IMG/VR virus record: IMGVR_UViG_3300017963_000554
Coordinates: 1 to 32,856 of that record
Direction: 5' to 3' (one strand)
DNA length: 32,856 nt
Origin: a virus
Below, piece after piece: positions 13,152-32,629 of the stretch; the stretch's first letter is position 1; each line of letters begins with the position of its first letter. A program made the position numbers and the translations under genes. Below the pieces are notes generated by a model. That model saw nothing but the letters and a program-made list of their open reading frames with translations, was not told the origin of the DNA and did no database searches.

Positions 13152-14309
13152 ATGGCTTGCGGAAACCCCCACGCACTCGGACGCACCCAGAGATTTTACG
13201 TTGCATACGAGACCGTATGCGGCACCCAGGTTAGGCCGGTTTCGACCGATGCGCTCAAGGTGCTAAACGCCAGCCTGGCGGTTGAGCAAGAGCGCAAGTC
13301 TCGCGACGATAAGCGCCTGACAAGATCGTTGCTCGAACGCATCACCGGCAAGGCGTCGGCGCCGTGGTCGGCTGAAATGTATGTGCTCCCGAGCGGAGTT
13401 GCCGGAACGCCGCCAGATGCACACCTGTTGCTATATGGGGCTTTCGGTGCTTACACCAACACGCCCGGAACGTCCGACGCATACACGCTGGGGTCGTTCA
13501 CCGCATTGCGCACGCACTCGATCTACGCCTCGACAGATGGCGGCGACGGCGATCCGATCGTCCAAGAGATGATCGATGGCGCCCTTGTCGACACCTGGGG
13601 GCTTAGTGTCTCGGGTGGTGATGAGCCCAAGATGACCTTTGAGGGCTGGGGTTTTGGTCACGTCCACACCGGCAACAGCCTGCAAGTTGGCGCACCTGTC
13701 GGCAATGACATTACCGTGACCGCTGGCGAGGGTGCCAACTTTGAGGTTGGCTCGCTAATTCAAGCCGGGAGCGACGACAACGGTGGAACCGGGTTTTTGG
13801 TAACTGCCGTTTCCGGCGATACCCTGACGCTAGACGCTGCCCCGACATCCGTTAACGCCGATCCGGTGCGCGGCTTCGTGCCGGCAGAGACCACGGCCGG
13901 CAATCCGGTGAATGGAGTAATCGGCAGCATTTCGATCGACGGGACCGTGCTCCCGATCACCGCTTTTGATGTGACGCTCAACAACCAATTCAAGCCGACC
14001 GATGATGAGGCTTTTGAGCAGTATCCGACTGACGCCATCGTGCAGCGGCGCACAGTGACTGGCAACGTCAGCATGAGGGCGCGCAAGGATCAAATTCTCA
14101 AACTGGGACAGCGCAAGCTTTTCGGAACGCACCCGATCGTTGTCACCATGGGCACGGGCGCCGGGACAACCGTAACCGTCAACGTGCCCTATGCCGAATA
14201 TGACTTTGCGGCCCTTGAGGTTCCAGAGGCCGATGAGGCTGTGATTTCTCTCCCGTTCACCGCCCTCGGTTCGAGTGGCGATGATGAGCTATCTTTGGTA
14301 TTCGCGTAA
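13152..14309 (+). CDS. Major tail (tube) protein
   Basis: A 385-residue protein starting MACGNPHALGRTQRFYVAYE at the ATG at 13152, ten bases after GGAGG. The sequence is beta-rich, as expected for tail tube subunits that stack as hexameric rings: an N-terminal tube-like half, an inserted Gly/Thr-rich module (residues 170-240, with AGEGANFEVGSLIQAG), and C-terminal strands (GSISIDGTVLPITAFDVTLNNQFKPTDDEAFEQYPTDAIV in part). The length suggests an extra surface domain. The gene lies directly upstream of the frameshifted chaperone, the usual order. Confidence 0.8.
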   Translation: MACGNPHALGRTQRFYVAYETVCGTQVRPVSTDALKVLNASLAVEQERKSRDDKRLTRSLLERITGKASAPWSAEMYVLPSGVAGTPPDAHLLLYGAFGAYTNTPGTSDAYTLGSFTALRTHSIYASTDGGDGDPIVQEMIDGALVDTWGLSVSGGDEPKMTFEGWGFGHVHTGNSLQVGAPVGNDITVTAGEGANFEVGSLIQAGSDDNGGTGFLVTAVSGDTLTLDAAPTSVNADPVRGFVPAETTAGNPVNGVIGSISIDGTVLPITAFDVTLNNQFKPTDDEAFEQYPTDAIVQRRTVTGNVSMRARKDQILKLGQRKLFGTHPIVVTMGTGAGTTVTVNVPYAEYDFAALEVPEADEAVISLPFTALGSSGDDELSLVFA

Positions 14310-14339
14310 AACGTCAGGCATACAGAAAGGCTCCAACCA

Positions 14340-14897
14340 ATGCCATTGATCGTTGATCGCTTTGATGACTGGGCGGAATACATCCCCGATGTGGGGGACA
14401 ACCGCCTAGAAGAAACCCCGATGTCGGTAGAGATCCGAGCGATGTCTACCGCAGAATACAAGGCAGTGCAGCGCCGCTGGGGTCCGAAGCTCCAGGGTAA
14501 GCAAGCTCTAGGCCGCGCGCAACGTATGGTAGAAAAGATCATTGCCGAACGAGTGCGGGACGTGCGTCACTGCATCGTTGTCAATCACACGACTGGCGAT
14601 GAGGTCATACCAAAGACCGCCTCAGACTTGCTCGAGCACGCGCCGGCATCGTTGATTGATGACATCTTTGCGGCGATTATCGACGCCTCGCACCTGTCTG
14701 CTGGCCTGAGAAAAAACTTGCAACGGCAGTCCGATTCTTCCTCTCGGACGATCCCGCCCTCGCCTGGGACTGCCGAGAATGCAAGCGGGAGAGTCGCAAG
14801 CAAGCCGGCCAACCCGGCAGAAAAACCCTTCGCTGGCTCCGAAACTGCGACCGAGAAAGCAACTCAAGCGTTGCTTGGGGATTCGCTCCCGGGCTGA
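14340..14897 (+). CDS. Tail assembly chaperone, short form (G-like)
   Basis: A 185-residue zero-frame product, located between the tail tube and tape measure genes as for lambda G. The first 125 residues are an acidic/helical domain (MSVEIRAMSTAEYKAVQRRWG, HLSAGLRKN). After the slippery site at 14711-14717 the zero frame becomes low-complexity (Ser, Pro, Ala, Thr), as expected where the -1 frame is under selection. These chaperones coat the tape measure during tail assembly and are absent from the finished virion. Confidence 0.8.
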   Translation: MPLIVDRFDDWAEYIPDVGDNRLEETPMSVEIRAMSTAEYKAVQRRWGPKLQGKQALGRAQRMVEKIIAERVRDVRHCIVVNHTTGDEVIPKTASDLLEHAPASLIDDIFAAIIDASHLSAGLRKNLQRQSDSSSRTIPPSPGTAENASGRVASKPANPAEKPFAGSETATEKATQALLGDSLPG

Positions 14898-15163
14898 GAC
14901 GATGCCCATGGTCAATCGTCAAACAGCCAGACGTTTCGACCGCGCTGCAATGGTGGCAGGACTGGGAACGGTTCGAGCTGTTACCTGGCGGGAGCGCGAA
15001 TATCGGCGAGGAGCCGCATACTGTCTATGAGGCTCTGAGTCTGTGTGAAGACACGAAAGCCGAGGTGCTGAGGAAGCGACACGAAAAGCAGCAAGCCGAC
15101 CTAGAGAAAGCAAGGAAGAAAGCCGAGGCCGATGGCAGACGCAACCCGAGAGGTAGGATTTAG
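14340..15163 (+). CDS. Tail assembly chaperone, -1 frameshift fusion (GT-like)
   Basis: Ribosomes slipping -1 on A AAA AAC (14711-14717) leave the zero frame after 126 codons. They then read 148 more codons to TAG at 15161-15163, giving a 274-residue fusion. The T part begins LATAVRFFLSDDPALAWDCR and has a CxxC pair, tryptophan-rich segments and a charged coiled coil (VLRKRHEKQQADLEKARKKAEA) before its end. It overlaps the tape measure start by 32 bases, as in other phages. The T frame has no good start of its own. Joined segments are 14340-14717 and 14717-15163. Confidence 0.85.
14711..14775 (+). promoter_or_regulatory. Programmed -1 ribosomal frameshift signal
   Basis: The heptamer A AAA AAC (14711-14717) is phased X XXY YYZ in the zero frame, the strongest class of -1 slippery site. 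After a 6-base spacer, CGGCAGTCC (14724-14732) pairs perfectly with GGACTGCCG (14767-14775) to form a 9-bp stem around a 34-base loop. That is the ideal position for a stimulatory structure. The loop is pyrimidine-rich and could allow further tertiary pairing. Confidence 0.85.
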
Positions 15164-18373: not shown

Positions 18374-20533
18374 ATGCTCACTCTCCCGACCAACTTTGTA
18401 GCGGCTTTCGAGCGTGCTGACGTTCGCCCTAGGTTCTGGGTCGAGATAGACAACGGGGTAACGCAATGGACTGCCGTTAGCGGGAGCATGGATCCAGACT
18501 CGGATCTGTATGCCGTGCCCGAGGGTGTTGTATCAGTCTCATCAATCGGCTCAGAGCTCGACCCGCTAACGCGCATTCGGGACGTTTCAGAATGCGTGGT
18601 TACGTTCGAGGACGCCTACCTTCGCCCGATCATCGTAGCCAATCGGTTACGCGGCAAGCGGATTTCGGTCAAGCTGGGCACGGCCGAGCTGAGTCTTGCT
18701 GATTTCGTCGAATACTTTTCGGGCTCAATCGAGGAGCTACAGCCAGATCCGAGCGGCGAGACGATCCAGATTGCCGTGATGGATGTGTTTGCTATCCTCA
18801 AAAACACGACCATCACCCACACCGTCTGGAACAAGCACCCACTGGAACACATCGAAGCGGCGCTAGTCGAATCCGACGTTGCTGCATCCCTCTACGATGC
18901 AACCAGCCTGGACCCGTCGCAGCCAGAGTATGCCACCATTAGTCACTATGTGGTGTCCAAGAATGCCAACTTGAACGAGCCAAACAGCGGCGCAATCGCG
19001 ATCCCGGTGCCGGCGTTCGATATCATTTCGGAGCTTGGGCAGTTGCTGTTTGGTCAGTTGGTGGTGCGTGAGGATGGCAAGTTACGTTTCGTTCTCTACG
19101 ATCCGGCGGCGTCGCCAGTGGCTCATTGGGGAAGCGATCAAATCCTGGCGGATACCTTCCAACAAACAGAGGACCCACTAGACAACCTGATCAATCAAGT
19201 GCAGCTATCATTCTGGCTCGACTTCGATCTAAAGACGGTTAACACGTTGTTTCTGTCCGACACTGCGAGCCAATCGAACTACGCCTATCCCGGCACCACC
19301 GGGCGCGTGGCTACCTGGGAGTATTCAACCAAATGGGTCAACGGCTGGTGTCATTTCATCGGCGACGCTGACGGCCTGATCCAGATCGCAGATACGACCA
19401 TAGAGGCCGAGGGCGGGATCCTGCACCACTTCACCGGCTTCAACCAATGGAACGCCGGCCCGCAGCCGGCATGGGCGCAAGTTGGCCCGACCCGACCCGC
19501 CTATTTACAACTCCGGGATTTCGATCGCCGCAGCCTCAAGGGCCAAGAGACGGTCAAGTGTGAACAGATCAACTTTGGCCCTGACTTCTCACACCTATCG
19601 GTTGAGGACTTGCCTAGCGGTGGCGGAGCTCAATCGTTCAACCCGGACAGGCAGCCGACTAACGCAACGTTTGCCAGTTTGACGCGCGGATTTCTGGCTA
19701 CGCCCCAAGTCTGGGATCGTGACTACTCGGCGATCTGGGATATCACGATCCTATATGACCTTGGTGTTAAGATCCTCGAGCGGTTCGCTGACGGCTTCTA
19801 TCGAGTCGAGCTCGAAACCTCATTCTCCGAATATGCGATTCAAGTCGGGGATGTAATCACCCTGACCTGGCCGCAGTTTGTTGGGTACAATCTCGATGGT
19901 CTAGACTCCTCATTTAAATGGGAAGTGATCGACAAGGAACCCGACGTGTATGCCGATCCGCCGCGCATCAAGTGGACGCTGGCCAGCATAGGCGCGAATA
20001 CGCCAACGGTCGGGGTCGGGACATTTGACAACGGAACGCGATCGGCAAAAGAGGGATTCGGTCAGGCCAACGGAGCGACGTTTACGCCATACGTGCTAGA
20101 CCAATCGGCGGCGTTGAATACTCGGAGCTCGGATTACTCCGTGACGGACTCAGGCGGTTTGACGATCGATGTCACGCCAGGAACGGCATCGGATGGCAGG
20201 GGCGCGATCGAGCTGTTGAACGGCTACACCGGGATTCCCGTCCTCGCCAGCAAAGACAATTACGTGTATGTCGACACCCGCGCCGGAGCGGTCAACATCA
20301 AATCCAAGACACTCGGAGCCGCGCCGCCGGTAACGCAGTTGACCGAGGCCCCGATTGCGAAAGTCGTAACTGATGCAACGTCGATCGTCCATATCGAGGA
20401 CCTGCGAACGTCGGGCAGCTTGAGCGGCACGCGGCTTTCGGATGATTCCGCAGCTACCGGGATCCAGCAAAACGAAACCGGACGCGCCGCCCTCAACCAA
20501 AACTTCAACTTTAGCCAACGGAGCCGGGGCTAA
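18374..20533 (+). CDS. Tail hub/tip protein (baseplate-like, 719 aa)
   Basis: A 719-residue protein, the largest after the tape measure. The N-terminal part (FERADVRPRFWVEI..., VVTFEDAYLRPIIVANRLRGKRISVKLG) and the middle VREDGKLRFVLYD resemble hub-like tail tip proteins of siphophages. The last 150 residues are Gly/Thr/Ser-rich (GGLTIDVTPGTASDGRGAIELL) and end NFSQRSRG, a likely fibre attachment region. It probably caps the tube and anchors the receptor-binding proteins encoded just downstream. No hydrolase motif was recognised. Confidence 0.6.
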   Translation: MLTLPTNFVAAFERADVRPRFWVEIDNGVTQWTAVSGSMDPDSDLYAVPEGVVSVSSIGSELDPLTRIRDVSECVVTFEDAYLRPIIVANRLRGKRISVKLGTAELSLADFVEYFSGSIEELQPDPSGETIQIAVMDVFAILKNTTITHTVWNKHPLEHIEAALVESDVAASLYDATSLDPSQPEYATISHYVVSKNANLNEPNSGAIAIPVPAFDIISELGQLLFGQLVVREDGKLRFVLYDPAASPVAHWGSDQILADTFQQTEDPLDNLINQVQLSFWLDFDLKTVNTLFLSDTASQSNYAYPGTTGRVATWEYSTKWVNGWCHFIGDADGLIQIADTTIEAEGGILHHFTGFNQWNAGPQPAWAQVGPTRPAYLQLRDFDRRSLKGQETVKCEQINFGPDFSHLSVEDLPSGGGAQSFNPDRQPTNATFASLTRGFLATPQVWDRDYSAIWDITILYDLGVKILERFADGFYRVELETSFSEYAIQVGDVITLTWPQFVGYNLDGLDSSFKWEVIDKEPDVYADPPRIKWTLASIGANTPTVGVGTFDNGTRSAKEGFGQANGATFTPYVLDQSAALNTRSSDYSVTDSGGLTIDVTPGTASDGRGAIELLNGYTGIPVLASKDNYVYVDTRAGAVNIKSKTLGAAPPVTQLTEAPIAKVVTDATSIVHIEDLRTSGSLSGTRLSDDSAATGIQQNETGRAALNQNFNFSQRSRG

Positions 20534-27145: not shown

Positions 27146-27294
27146 CAGACTCGCCGCACCGCTAACGCGGACGTGGGGCAGAGCGCCGGGGATGGTAGCC
27201 GAGTCCTAGCCGTAGGACCAGGGCCGGGAGACTCCGGGCGGTGATTTGAATTGTCAGACCGCTGCGGCATAGTGTCTGGCTGAAAGGGGATCCG
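27146..27294 (+). other. Non-coding stretch with several hairpins upstream of the nuclease gene
   Basis: I see no credible gene in these 149 bases. Possible stems include CCGC-TAAC-GCGG (27159-27170), GTCCTA-GCCG-TAGGAC (27203-27218, perfect 6 bp with a tetraloop), and CCGG/CCGG (27224-27237). GCGGT (27238-27242) can pair with ACCGC (27258-27262), competing with CAGAC/GTCTG (27255-27278). The last 14 bases hold the ribosome binding site of the nuclease gene. It could be a leader RNA or a small RNA. A tRNA was considered and rejected because it has no T arm. Confidence 0.45.
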
Positions 27295-28392: not shown

Positions 28393-29417
28393 GCAACGCA
28401 CTAATCAAGAAAACCGCCGACTTCCTACAGCAACCGAAGCAAGTTGATTTCCTGGCTGGCCTCCTGGCATCTACGCCGGAGGAAGCCGCGCGGGTGGTCA
28501 AGACTGCCATTGTGCAGATCATGGCCAACCCGACGCTTGCCAAGTGTGAGCCGCTGTCGGTTTTTCGCGCCGTCGCGCAAGCCGCGCAACTTGGCCTTGA
28601 GCTTGGCCAGGAGGCGCACGTTATCCCCTACGGTGGACAAGCCACCATGCAAGCCGACTATAAGGGGCTGATGCGTCTAGCAGTCGGCAACGGGATCGCC
28701 AAGGTTCGCGGGGATGTCGTTTATGCTGCCGATGGATTCGACTATACGCGCGAGCCGCTATCACTCAAACACAAACCACACCTCGGCGATGATCGCGGGG
28801 ACTTCCGGCTTGCCTATGCTGTCGCGTATGATACCGAGGGCAGGCAGATTGAGGCAACGATCATTCTCGCCAGCGAGCTAGCCAGGCTCCAAAGCAAATC
28901 GAGATCGCCAGCGTGGAAAGAATGGCCCGACCGTATGCGGATCAAGTCAGCGATCAAGCGTTGCTGCAAACATCTCCCGCTAAACACGCGGGCCGCGCGG
29001 CTGATCCGAATCGAGGACAACGCCGACGCTGGTCAATTCGTCGACCCCGAGATTGATGACCTCGGCAAAGTTATCGACGCGCCGAGGCTCGAGGAAGGCA
29101 GTCACCGTATCCGGGACCTCGGAACCGAGGCGGGCGAGCAAACCGAGACCCCTGCGGTCGAGCCCGACCCCGAGATGGATAAGCCAAAGCCAAAGCCGAA
29201 GCGCAGCAGCAACGGCAACGGCAAGCGCAAGTGTTCCGTATGCGGTGAGACGGGCCACAATGCCCGGAGCTGCCCCGAGAAAGACGGCAAGCAAACCGAG
29301 GAAGAGCGGCTAGAGGAAACCCGGCAGGCGGTCAGGGAAGCACAGGCCGAGACGCAGAGCGAGCCGCCGCCTCCTGGCGATAGCGATCGGCCCGGGTGGG
29401 GCTTCGGAAATGGCTGA
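28389..29417 (+). CDS. recT: RecT-like single-strand annealing protein with C-terminal zinc knuckle
   Basis: A 342-residue protein. Residues 1-230 match the RecT/Bet-type annealase family (TLAKCEPLSVFRAVAQAAQLGLELG, AHVIPYGGQATMQADYKGLMRLA, KSAIKRCCKHLPL). The tail is a disordered proline/lysine/glutamate region carrying a CCHC zinc knuckle at C282, C285, H290 and C295 (CSVCGETGHNARSC). It ends in a Gly/Pro-rich stretch, GDSDRPGWGFGNG. The knuckle may strengthen single-strand binding. It is almost the same as the one on the small terminase, which is unusual. Confidence 0.85.
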   Translation: MSNALIKKTADFLQQPKQVDFLAGLLASTPEEAARVVKTAIVQIMANPTLAKCEPLSVFRAVAQAAQLGLELGQEAHVIPYGGQATMQADYKGLMRLAVGNGIAKVRGDVVYAADGFDYTREPLSLKHKPHLGDDRGDFRLAYAVAYDTEGRQIEATIILASELARLQSKSRSPAWKEWPDRMRIKSAIKRCCKHLPLNTRAARLIRIEDNADAGQFVDPEIDDLGKVIDAPRLEEGSHRIRDLGTEAGEQTETPAVEPDPEMDKPKPKPKRSSNGNGKRKCSVCGETGHNARSCPEKDGKQTEEERLEETRQAVREAQAETQSEPPPPGDSDRPGWGFGNG

Positions 29418-30231
29418 GACTGGCGACGTTTGGGTCAGTCCGTGCGGGCGCATGAAACTGTACTGCGGGCGTTGGCAGGATGTGTTGTCCGATGTGTCTG
29501 AGTGCGATGCGGTGATCACGGATCCGCCGTATTCGCCAAAATCTCATAGCGGATTCAGGAGCGCCGACGACTACCAGGCACACTATCGACAGAATCTAAA
29601 CGGCCGACGCACACAATGGGGAAAGGATGGGCAAAAGCGCCACGGCGGTGCGTCGTATGGCGGCATCCCGTATTCGCCGATCGATCGCCATCAGGCGATG
29701 GAGTTGGCCGGGATGTACTTGCCGTTGTGGTGGGTGATATTCGGCGATCACATCTCATTCGGAATCTGGGAACACGCGTTGCGCACATACGACTGGTATA
29801 CCTTTGCGCCGGTTGTCTGGTGGCGCACTGGTGGGACCCCTCGTTTTCAGGGAGACGGCCCAGCGTCTGCTGTTGAGCAGATCCTAATTGCGCGAGTCAA
29901 AACGCAAACCAAGTGCGGTAGCCTACCTGGGATCTACGTTCACCCTCAGGTCAAGGGCAATGCGGCAGAGAAAGTGTTGAAGGGGCAGAAGCCAGTACCG
30001 CTGATGCAGGAGATCATTCGCGACTACTCCCGCCCAGGCGACCTAATCGTAGATCCATACGCCGGCAGCGGCACCACCCTCCTAGCCGCCGCGATCGAGG
30101 GACGCAGAGAAATCGGCGCCGAGATGGATCCCAATACATTCGAGCTTGCGGTCAAGCGGTTGAGCAAGGGCTACACCCCGCGATTGCAGTTGCCAGATCG
30201 GCCTAAACCAAAGCAAGGGGATTTGCTATGA
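29410..30231 (+). CDS. Beta-class DNA methyltransferase (N6-adenine or N4-cytosine)
   Basis: A 273-residue enzyme with catalytic DPPYS (38-42) before the S-adenosylmethionine site DPYAGSGTT (215-223), the beta-class order. It would methylate an exocyclic amino group (N6-adenine or N4-cytosine) in a short DNA site; the specificity cannot be read. No restriction partner is present, so it is probably an orphan that protects phage DNA or marks it for regulation. It overlaps the RecT-like gene by eight bases. Confidence 0.85.
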   Translation: MAETGDVWVSPCGRMKLYCGRWQDVLSDVSECDAVITDPPYSPKSHSGFRSADDYQAHYRQNLNGRRTQWGKDGQKRHGGASYGGIPYSPIDRHQAMELAGMYLPLWWVIFGDHISFGIWEHALRTYDWYTFAPVVWWRTGGTPRFQGDGPASAVEQILIARVKTQTKCGSLPGIYVHPQVKGNAAEKVLKGQKPVPLMQEIIRDYSRPGDLIVDPYAGSGTTLLAAAIEGRREIGAEMDPNTFELAVKRLSKGYTPRLQLPDRPKPKQGDLL

Positions 30232-30370
30232 TCGATTTGCCCGGAGCACCACCGGGCAAGGCCCGACCTCACGGATCCCCCCCTTTCTCCCGGGGGTCGG
30301 GCCACTATCGCGCCGGCAATTCCGCCGGCCAGGCGAGGCCAAGGATTCTCTTGTCTGCAACCTCGCCAAC

Positions 30371-30413
30371 CCCCCGCCAGTGCGTCTGGGTCAACACTGC
30401 TCGCTGGCGGGGG
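30371..30413. repeat. 10-bp inverted repeat CCCCCGCCAG/CTGGCGGGGG
   Basis: The arms at 30371-30380 and 30404-30413 pair perfectly around a 23-base loop. The right arm is followed with no gap by a second hairpin, TATCAA-CGATT-TTGATA (30414-30430). A strong GC stem next to a weak AT stem is uncommon in coding DNA and could form a cruciform or an RNA double hairpin. Confidence 0.7.
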
Positions 30414-30497
30414 TATCAACGATTTTGATATGCGTTTTCAGTAGACGCCTATCGGCTGTTGTGCGATAACCAACACGCGCGGCGATGATGCCGCATG

Positions 30498-30593
30498 GCT
30501 CTGGGGAGCTTTCTTGATCGTAGCCTTTCCGTCCCGGCCCCTTTGGTAATTCCCTCCCCCCAGAGCGCCGGGGGGGTCGGGGCGGAAATTTTT
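30498..30593 (+). terminator. Terminator-like hairpin with crossing (pseudoknot-capable) stem
   Basis: TTTCCGTCCCGGCCCC (30526-30541) pairs with GGGGTCGGGGCGGAAA (30573-30588) over 16 pairs, two of them G-T, and TTTTT follows at 30589-30593. A second stem joins GCTCTGGGG (30498-30506) to CCCCAGAGC (30558-30566), which lies in the loop of the first. The two stems cross, so they could form a pseudoknot or act as alternatives. It ends only a few bases before the ribosome binding site of the replication gene, as an attenuator would. Confidence 0.65.
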
Positions 30594-30608
30594 GCCCGGA
30601 GGTCCGAT

Positions 30609-31376
30609 GTGTCGTGGGCGCGGATAGATGATCAGGCGTGGCACCACCCGAAATTTGAGGCGCTACAATCCGAGGGCCTCGAGGGCATGGCCGCGATCGG
30701 CCTATGGGCAATGGCAATATCCTTTACTGGACAAAAACAAGAGCCTCGAATCACGTTGAATCAGGCCGCCATGCTTTGCGGCGGGGACAAAGATCTTGCT
30801 TCAATCTGCTTCGATTTGCTTCGAAGCAGAGGGTTGATTGATAGTGATTCTGCTTCGAAGCAGACAGTCATACACGACTGGTCGGAGTACCGAAGCAAAC
30901 GCGAAGCAAAGGTTAATGCCGGAAGGAAGGGCGGCATAAAGTCTGGGGAATCCAGGCGAAGCAAAGGCGAAGCAAGCCCGGAACCAACTAAGCGTTCTGC
31001 TTCGAAGCAAACCCGAAGCCCCGATCCCGATCCCGTACCCGATCCCGTACCCGATCCCGTTCCTAAAGAAGAAGAAGAAGAAGAAGCGATCGAGGTTATT
31101 GGCTGTTCCGGCGGCGAGCGTTTCGTTGTCACCCGTCCGATGGTTGATAATTGGGCCGGCGCTTTTCCGGGTGTCGATGTTTTGGCCGAAATCAAAAAGG
31201 CCAAAGTTTGGCTTGCCGATAATCCGACAAAAGCGAAAACCAGGCGAGGGATGCGCCGTTTTTTGGGTGGGTGGATGTCTAGGCAGCAAGATAAGCCGAA
31301 GCCGAAAAGGGCAGATTCAAAAAGAATCGAAACCGGCAGCTTGCCATTAGGGCCAGACGTTAGCCGGCAGCTCTGA
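30609..31376 (+). CDS. Replication initiator protein (lambda O-like role)
   Basis: The GTG at 30609 is chosen because GGAGG (30598-30602) lies six bases upstream and the protein then begins MSWARIDDQAWHHPKFEALQ, the usual opening of phage replication proteins. The N-terminal 100 residues look like a winged helix (LWAMAISFTG, LNQAAMLCG, SKQTVIHDWSEYRSKREAK). A basic linker, a DPVP repeat and a poly-glutamate run follow. The C-terminal FPGVDVLAEIKKAKVWLADNP...MRRFLGGWMSRQ domain resembles helicase-loading ends. The gene contains an array of GCTTC/GAAGC repeats, so it probably binds its own origin. The DnaB-type helicase gene follows after 11 bases. Confidence 0.75.
   Translation: MSWARIDDQAWHHPKFEALQSEGLEGMAAIGLWAMAISFTGQKQEPRITLNQAAMLCGGDKDLASICFDLLRSRGLIDSDSASKQTVIHDWSEYRSKREAKVNAGRKGGIKSGESRRSKGEASPEPTKRSASKQTRSPDPDPVPDPVPDPVPKEEEEEEAIEVIGCSGGERFVVTRPMVDNWAGAFPGVDVLAEIKKAKVWLADNPTKAKTRRGMRRFLGGWMSRQQDKPKPKRADSKRIETGSLPLGPDVSRQL
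30797..31020. repeat. Iteron-like array of GCTTC/GAAGC repeats (candidate origin)
   Basis: Thirteen GCTTC or GAAGC cores lie within 222 bases. Three form the perfect palindrome GCTTCGAAGC (30818-30827, 30852-30861, 30999-31008). Others are direct repeats one helical turn apart: starts 30798, 30808 and 30818 (10 bases), 30892 and 30903, 30958 and 30969, 31004 and 31015 (11 bases each). Many are followed by AAA or AGA. Regular spacing of this kind is typical of initiator-binding iterons. Part of the pattern could reflect repeated SK/EA codons. Confidence 0.75.
31022..31087 (+). repeat. Tandem GATCCCGTACCC repeat and purine tract beside the iterons
   Basis: From 31022 to about 31060 a 12-base unit (GATCCCGTACCC, encoding DPVP) repeats about three times. 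A pure purine run made of GAA/AAG triplets (about 31066-31087) follows. In lambda the origin in gene O also has iterons next to an asymmetric purine-rich, easily melted stretch. Here the purine run could be the unwinding region. Confidence 0.6.
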
Positions 31377-31387
31377 AAGGGGGAGTT

Positions 31388-32629
31388 ATGGATTCTTTCG
31401 ATCGAATGCTCGAGGAAGCCGTGATCGGCGGCACGCTGCTGGCGGACAAGCTACCGCCCGAAGTGTTGCTGGTTGAGCCGGAGTATTTCACCGGGCGCGG
31501 TCATGGGGAGATTTGGACCGCCATAGCCGATTTATTGCAGCAGGGATCCGATGTGGATGAGGTGACGGTTAGCAAGGCAATCGGCAAGCCGGGATTGTTC
31601 GTCTACCTCAATCGCCTAGCGGAAGATTGCCCTACATCGCAAAACCTCGGCGCGTGGTGCAAACGGCTAATTGATTTCGGCAGCAAGCGGCTTGCCGATA
31701 ACCAGATCCGCCAGGTCATGCTTGACGGCGGGGATCCTGCCGATCTCGCACAAAGGGTCGATCAAATCGCGCGGCAATATCGAAAAGACAAGGCAGATGG
31801 TCTGCGCCACGTATCCGGGCCGCTCAAGGAATTGGTGCGGAAATTAGAGGCAGAGCAAAAAGGGGAAGCCGGAATGATTGCGGCTAAGACTGGATTACAA
31901 GCCGTCGATCAATGCGTCCGAATGGAGCCGCACGGGCTGACGATAATTGCCGCCAGGCCAGGCATGGGTAAGACCGCCTTTGCCGGCAATATCGTCTCAG
32001 AGTGCGCGGCCCGCAAAGATGGCGCGGTTGTTCTTTTCTCGCTTGAGATGGATGCAGTTGCGATAGTGCGCCGGATGGTTGCCGGGGCTGCCGGATTGCC
32101 GACCGATAAGCTAATGAGCAATCCGGCCAAGCTGGCTCATGCTATGAATCAGATCCACGGGCTCGACTTCTACGTTGACGATCGCCCTGGGTTGTCAACG
32201 GCAGACATCCGATCGGCTCTTTCTCGCATGGGCAAGATCAGCCTTGTGCTTGTTGATTACATCCAACTAGCCAAAATGGACCAGAAGATCGAACGGCACG
32301 ATCTGCGGGTCGGGCAAATCACGAAGGACCTAAAGGCGATTGCTAAGCATTACAACTGTCACGTGATCGCGCTGTCGCAGCTCAACCGATCTGTGGAGCA
32401 GAACAATCCGCCGATCCCTCGCCTAAGCAATCTGCGCGACTCCGGCAACCTCGAGGAAGACGCGGATATTGTGTTGATGCTTTATCGACCAGGCTATTAC
32501 GACGCCGACGCTGGCGATGAGGCCAGCGTTTACATCCCGAAGAATCGCAACGGGCCGACCGGCGAGGCAAAAGTTTTCTGGGATGCCAAGCGGCAGCGGT
32601 TCCATGATGTGGAGAGGTGGCGCCAATGA
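31388..32629 (+). CDS. dnaB: DnaB-type replicative helicase
   Basis: A 413-residue protein with DnaB features: an N-terminal helical domain (EEAVIGGTLLADKLPPEVLL, EYFTGRGHGEIWTAI), Walker A AARPGMGKT (188-196), Walker B LVLVDYIQL (286-294), and ALSQLNRSVE and SNLRDSGNLEEDADIVLML in the C-terminal RecA-like domain. It unwinds the fork 5' to 3' as a hexameric ring. GAAAGGGGGA lies just before the ATG. Together with the initiator upstream it gives the phage its own origin recognition and helicase; polymerase would come from the host. Confidence 0.93.
   Translation: MDSFDRMLEEAVIGGTLLADKLPPEVLLVEPEYFTGRGHGEIWTAIADLLQQGSDVDEVTVSKAIGKPGLFVYLNRLAEDCPTSQNLGAWCKRLIDFGSKRLADNQIRQVMLDGGDPADLAQRVDQIARQYRKDKADGLRHVSGPLKELVRKLEAEQKGEAGMIAAKTGLQAVDQCVRMEPHGLTIIAARPGMGKTAFAGNIVSECAARKDGAVVLFSLEMDAVAIVRRMVAGAAGLPTDKLMSNPAKLAHAMNQIHGLDFYVDDRPGLSTADIRSALSRMGKISLVLVDYIQLAKMDQKIERHDLRVGQITKDLKAIAKHYNCHVIALSQLNRSVEQNNPPIPRLSNLRDSGNLEEDADIVLMLYRPGYYDADAGDEASVYIPKNRNGPTGEAKVFWDAKRQRFHDVERWRQ

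Follow-up and report, generated by a model that had tools for sequence, protein, structure and literature searches.

The window analysed here is the whole 32,856-bp record of an unclassified Caudoviricetes-type phage, which encodes a terminase, portal, capsid-E major head protein, tape measure and endolysin. On the plus strand, 3' of the endolysin gene, lies an early operon for an exonuclease, RecT, an N6/N4 DNA methyltransferase (29410-30231), a replication initiator of the phrog_2447 family (30609-31376) and a DnaB-like replicative helicase (31388-32629). The PHROG profile matches the initiator from its GTG start (30609-30611) onward, and a Shine-Dalgarno motif, GGAGGT, can be read from the sequence at 30598-30603. 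The early gene order agrees with that of actinophages such as Microbacterium phage Blett (exonuclease and RecT, followed by initiator, loader and DnaB), at low protein identity. Neither of two such phages has a gap comparable to the one found here between the methyltransferase and initiator genes: 25 bp precede the initiator gene in Blett, and in phage Ribeye the genes overlap. This gap is the largest in the window that no plausible open reading frame overlaps; the other long gaps overlap frames of 110-184 codons. A same-species contig (L102) reaches 2.3 kb past the left end of the window and encodes, at L102:968-1651, a tyrosine-integrase-like protein recognised by eye; the phage is therefore probably temperate.

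The gap is predicted to be strongly structured. All of the inverted-repeat stems that an earlier, sequence-only reading had named between 30232 and 30608 are present, and this interval folds beyond chance (z -5.9) and ranks first among 342 windows of 377 nt in a genome-wide, G+C-corrected scan of both strands. With boundaries tuned after inspection of the data, although the unbiased scan had by then placed the region first, the element spans 30225-30593 on the plus strand and reaches a minimum free energy of -197.9 kcal/mol (z -8.5 against dinucleotide shuffles), with a centroid close to the minimum-free-energy structure. The predicted fold is also unusually well defined. Its mean base-pair distance is 22.5. 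The corresponding values are 87 for shuffled sequences, none below 38, and 84 for 178 other windows of the phage, none below 28. Where shuffles contain 1.9 non-overlapping hairpins of 6 bp or more, the element contains six. The flanks are unstructured (z +1.1 for 29850-30218 and -0.2 for 30100-30224).

Two parts make up the element: a branched domain, 30225-30524, and a terminator-like hairpin, 30526-30593. The domain is predicted to be closed by helix P1, in which 30225-30235 (GCTATGATCGA) pairs with 30514-30524 (TTGATCGTAGC) over 11 bp, two of them G-U. The 5' arm of P1 begins in the last methyltransferase codons and overlaps the stop codon; P1 is a prediction from the folds and is not significant by itself. 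Within it, the folds place hairpin H1 (30237-30244/30252-30259, 8 bp), hairpin H2 (30260-30270/30293-30303, with inner pairs 30272-30274/30290-30292), and a branched subdomain (z -6.4 when folded alone) whose closing pairs, 30306-30311/30463-30468, enclose four hairpins at 30312-30329, 30332-30367, 30371-30413 and 30419-30462. A hairpin at 30479-30483/30490-30494 and hairpin H10 (30497-30501/30506-30510, -4.9 kcal/mol) complete the domain. Most junctions leave 0-5 bases unpaired, the longest 10. A pairing that would sequester the Shine-Dalgarno sequence (30252-30259/30592-30599) was considered and rejected; it has a probability of 0.68 within 30232-30608 and of 0.002 once the flanks are included.

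One base 3' of P1 begins the terminal hairpin, with a core stem (I1, 30526-30541/30573-30588) of 16 pairs, two of them G-U, that can be extended to 22 bp (30526-30547/30567-30588). Much about it resembles an intrinsic terminator. The stem is G+C-rich and stable beyond chance (-41 kcal/mol; z -4.3 on the plus strand and -0.6 on the minus strand), a U-tract of minimal length, TTTTT, follows it directly at 30589-30593, and a d'Aubenton-type terminator discriminant gives d = +13, with a cut-off of 0. The apical loop, however, is 19 nt long, partly closable by 3 bp, where intrinsic terminators have loops of about 3-10 nt, and for this reason we call the hairpin terminator-like rather than a proven member of that class. 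A consensus terminator scan does not list it, because the loop exceeds that scan's 3-8 nt limit. The earlier description of a last stem of 16 pairs followed by TTTTT is accurate; the spacing from there to the ribosome binding site is four bases (30594-30597) and not five. Only 15 nt separate the end of the U-tract from the initiator GTG, which leaves no room for a promoter, and therefore every transcript that reaches the initiator and DnaB genes must read through the terminator-like hairpin. The broader claim of a non-coding, structured and terminator-like region directly before the initiator gene is supported.

The loop of the terminal hairpin had been said to be complementary to 30498-30506, and it is: 30498-30506 can pair with 30558-30566 over nine perfect base pairs, crossing the terminal stem to form a possible pseudoknot. 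This duplex (-17.9 kcal/mol) would replace the weaker local hairpin H10, its competitor. In a test chosen after the data had been inspected, the match to the terminator loop had a shuffle P of 0.023 when the whole upstream domain was considered and of 0.0025 for the adjacent 36 nt. We regard the crossing stem as a candidate control element. It can form before the 3' arm of the terminator has been transcribed, and so could help or hinder termination. The earlier suggestion of an attenuator holds in part. The element does sit in a gating position; the nested predicted ensembles contain no antiterminator fold that would compete, although the 9-bp crossing stem could act as one. The upstream domain is predicted to fold in the same way whether or not the terminator has yet been made, which suggests that the terminator should form by default.

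The likely replication origin lies further downstream, in the initiator gene itself. Between 30797 and 31009 there are 12 copies of GAAGCA/TGCTTC, compared with an expectation of 1.6, and none of 5000 synonymous-codon shuffles reached this number. Three TGCTTCGAAGCA palindromes (at 30817, 30851 and 30998) are part of this iteron-like array, so that 12 half-sites and three palindromes provide the multiple inverted-repeat iterons within an initiator gene that characterise a lambda-type origin. In lambda, the origin likewise consists of inverted-repeat iterons inside the O gene and requires transcription across it (PMC5043065). By this analogy the array is probably a lambda-O-type replication origin. 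The hairpin cluster is unlikely to be the origin, since the iterons sit in the initiator gene; it is situated a short way before them, on the route that transcription takes to reach them. With the iterons downstream of the hairpin, synthesis of the initiator and transcription through the origin would both be gated by it.

We therefore favor, with about an even chance of being right, a model in which a leader or small RNA, structured and ending in a terminator, gates the initiator-DnaB module. In early-operon transcripts carrying the exonuclease, RecT and methyltransferase genes, 30225-30524 would take up its branched fold, and some of these transcripts would end at 30589-30593, which would free an RNA with a structured 3' end. 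The initiator and DnaB messages would be made, and the iteron array transcribed, only by polymerases that pass this point, and such read-through might be constitutive at some level or might follow a phage or host antitermination event. The gate would thereby limit both the supply of initiator and the transcriptional activation of the origin; even partial termination at the hairpin would, through geometry and nothing else, determine how strongly the replication functions are expressed. Termination, regulated read-through and a regulatory role of the domain, perhaps by way of the 9-bp crossing stem, are what we infer from this arrangement. Several roles are conceivable for the upstream domain: it could serve as the sensor, modify the polymerase, shield the released RNA through its fold, or stand as an RNA of its own. 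Against a gate stand the U-tract of just five bases, the 19-nt hairpin loop, and an upstream domain much bigger than a simple attenuator would require.

The edges of the element may hold a trace of its history. An 11-bp direct repeat, TTTGCCCGGAG, occurs on the plus strand at 30236-30246 and again at 30591-30601, where it overlaps the initiator Shine-Dalgarno sequence; edges sharing an 11-mer arise in 0.02% of shuffles (P 0.0002). If one copy and the intervening sequence are removed, the methyltransferase stop comes to lie about two dozen bases from the initiator start, close to the 25 bp seen in Blett. This suggests, and no more than suggests, that a cassette was gained between the two genes, because TTTGCCCGGAG also permits competing pairings, either in H1 or in a long-range pairing that covers the Shine-Dalgarno sequence. 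It is possible that the pair is an insertion scar or a duplicated ribosome-binding region.

Could the region instead act as protein-coding sequence or as DNA? A 66-codon open frame on the plus strand (30228-30428) had been named as the coding alternative. Its ATG overlaps the methyltransferase stop (ATGA) and AAGGGG lies eight bases upstream, as might be expected if a small gene or leader peptide were translated here and its codons were complementary by coincidence. Its codon score, on the other hand, is that of non-coding sequence: -0.10 per codon, compared with 0.42 +/- 0.17 in real genes and just under the lowest of 104 real-gene chunks of 66 codons (minimum -0.09). The frame has no PHROG or Pfam match, and the structure extends well past its end. 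We judge it not to be a gene, and a translated product there to be extremely improbable. The minus-strand frames of the region gave no convincing family match either. Many inverted repeats, with 11-bp direct repeats at the edges, would also suit an element that works as DNA, such as a palindrome-rich replication or recombination site or the remnant of a palindromic mobile element, and a structured DNA site used in replication had been among the early proposals. A cruciform should fold symmetrically; the two strands of the whole element are very unequal (z -8.5 on the plus strand and -3.2 on the minus strand), which favors RNA over a DNA palindrome. The plus-strand fold is 27 kcal/mol better because 19 of its 124 predicted pairs are G-U, and these become mismatches on the opposite strand, a bias unexpected for a palindrome in DNA. 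The initiator gene behaves differently: over its first 370 nt, where the iterons are, the strands fold about equally (z -3.9 and -5.0), as is expected of DNA palindromes. With the lambda-O-like iterons located in that gene and no second copy of the element found in the phage, the strand bias of 30225-30593 points to RNA, and we consider a DNA-level element improbable.

Two other readings accept the RNA and differ from the gate in what it does. The domain 30225-30524 reaches a z of -8.1 by itself and is predicted to fold independently of the terminator, so it might be a structured non-coding RNA of the phage that stands alone between two genes by chance of location, carries its own terminator and works in trans or as an RNA machine, with an effect on the initiator that is incidental. 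The TTTGCCCGGAG repeats at the edges, as if a cassette had been inserted, and the lack of such a gap in Blett and Ribeye would be consistent with this. Yet a sigma-70 scan of the plus strand returned no promoters between 27727 and 32856, and hence no recognisable promoter before the element; no copies occur elsewhere in the phage or in any collection searched, and P1 includes the last codons of the methyltransferase gene, which ties the fold to its site. A free-standing RNA is accordingly a possible but doubtful explanation. Alternatively, the elaborate structure immediately 5' of a terminator in an early operon may be a cis-acting, polymerase-modifying RNA that directs put- or EAR-like processive antitermination. 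The put RNAs of HK022, which are likewise structured RNAs ahead of terminators in a phage early operon, work there without a phage protein (PMC9378689). They are, however, promoter-proximal early leaders of about 70 nt with two stem-loops (PMC9378689), whereas the element here differs in both size and position: it measures 300 nt and sits some 4 kb into the operon, and no Rfam family matches it. We think a put- or EAR-like function very improbable.

Searches for relatives of the RNA yielded no homolog. Against Rfam, at gathering and at permissive thresholds, there were only implausible eukaryotic or sub-threshold matches. The GOLLD, ROOL and OLE covariance models gave no match, and neither did HEARO or the omega RNA of IscB-TnpB in Rfam; the neighboring genes are a methyltransferase and an initiator, not a nuclease. 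Neither an Rfam riboswitch family nor an aptamer conserved in homologs was found, there being no match in the first case and no homologs in the second. In IMG/VR, no relative reached through the initiator, methyltransferase, DnaB, RecT or capsid covers the region, and the only two same-species fragments (L007 and L008) match other parts of the phage. Two scans of bacterial and archaeal genomes recovered no relative; a BLAST search of phages and plasmids with the region gave chance matches only; nhmmer and the single-sequence covariance models R1 and R2 over 0.8 Mb of loci, as well as R1 over 50 related records, found nothing convincing; and a pattern scan for the region found nothing homologous. 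A 17-mer from the longest predicted linker was found in five viral contigs, four of which share one related, coding-like context, and none has the structure; we dismissed it as chance. The sequence upstream of the initiator gene in distant homologs is not unusually structured. This absence of RNA relatives is weak evidence, because the initiator, methyltransferase, DnaB and RecT of the phage are also without close relatives in the collections searched.

Comparisons with described systems suggest parts of known kinds. The lambda PR-O-P region has an early-operon terminator, tR1, upstream of the initiator and helicase-module genes, in a position comparable to that of the terminator-like hairpin. 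That terminator lies ahead of cII and not immediately ahead of the initiator gene; it depends on Rho, and no folded domain of 300 nt accompanies it. We identified no system like lambda N/nut in the present phage. A precedent for the proposed gate is IsrK of prophage Gifsy-1, a small RNA with an intrinsic terminator whose read-through yields a downstream mRNA (PMC4825925); it is short, has its own promoter and controls an antirepressor/antiQ pathway, and no relation to it in sequence or structure was seen. GOLLD and ROOL are, like the element as predicted here, encoded by phages or prophages, non-coding, heavily branched and very stably folded (PMC12286853). Many GOLLDs, however, exceed 800 nt, compared with about 300-370 nt for this element, which is not near tRNAs and has no Rfam match.

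No described family matches either the combination of parts or the RNA; known from one sequence, the element establishes no class, and may be a novel phage RNA or an isolated case. An ornate and undescribed class of phage RNA, in which P1 closes a multi-branched domain of 300 nt and a pseudoknot links that domain to the terminator, the whole acting as a dedicated replication switch over initiator synthesis and origin transcription, seems to us unlikely. If the gate is real, it would be a compact, RNA-level control of the replication decision of a phage, unlike the N/nut/tR1 layout of lambda, with a large folded domain and a terminator placed directly at the initiator ribosome-binding site and a likely origin in the same gene. 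Orphan structured RNAs of this kind are missed by annotation because no Rfam family matches them, and this case offers exact boundaries, a predicted structure and a predicted 3' end at 30589-30593.

Some minor observations concern other parts of the phage. A second gap, of 149 bp (27146-27294), precedes the exonuclease gene and has no coding-like open frame; it was rejected as another structured element (z +0.16). A 13-mer, CAGAGCGCCGGGG, is common to this gap (at 27179) and to the loop region of the terminal hairpin (at 30561). ARAGORN called a tRNA-Arg (gcg) on the minus strand at 19403-19502, antisense within a tail-protein gene, and the call is probably a false positive. Contig L104 and the window share 99.7% identity as far as about 12.9 kb; the figure is 74.7% over 13235-15126 (L104:240-2125), a drop that, on this alignment, reads as a mosaic exchange with a sister phage.
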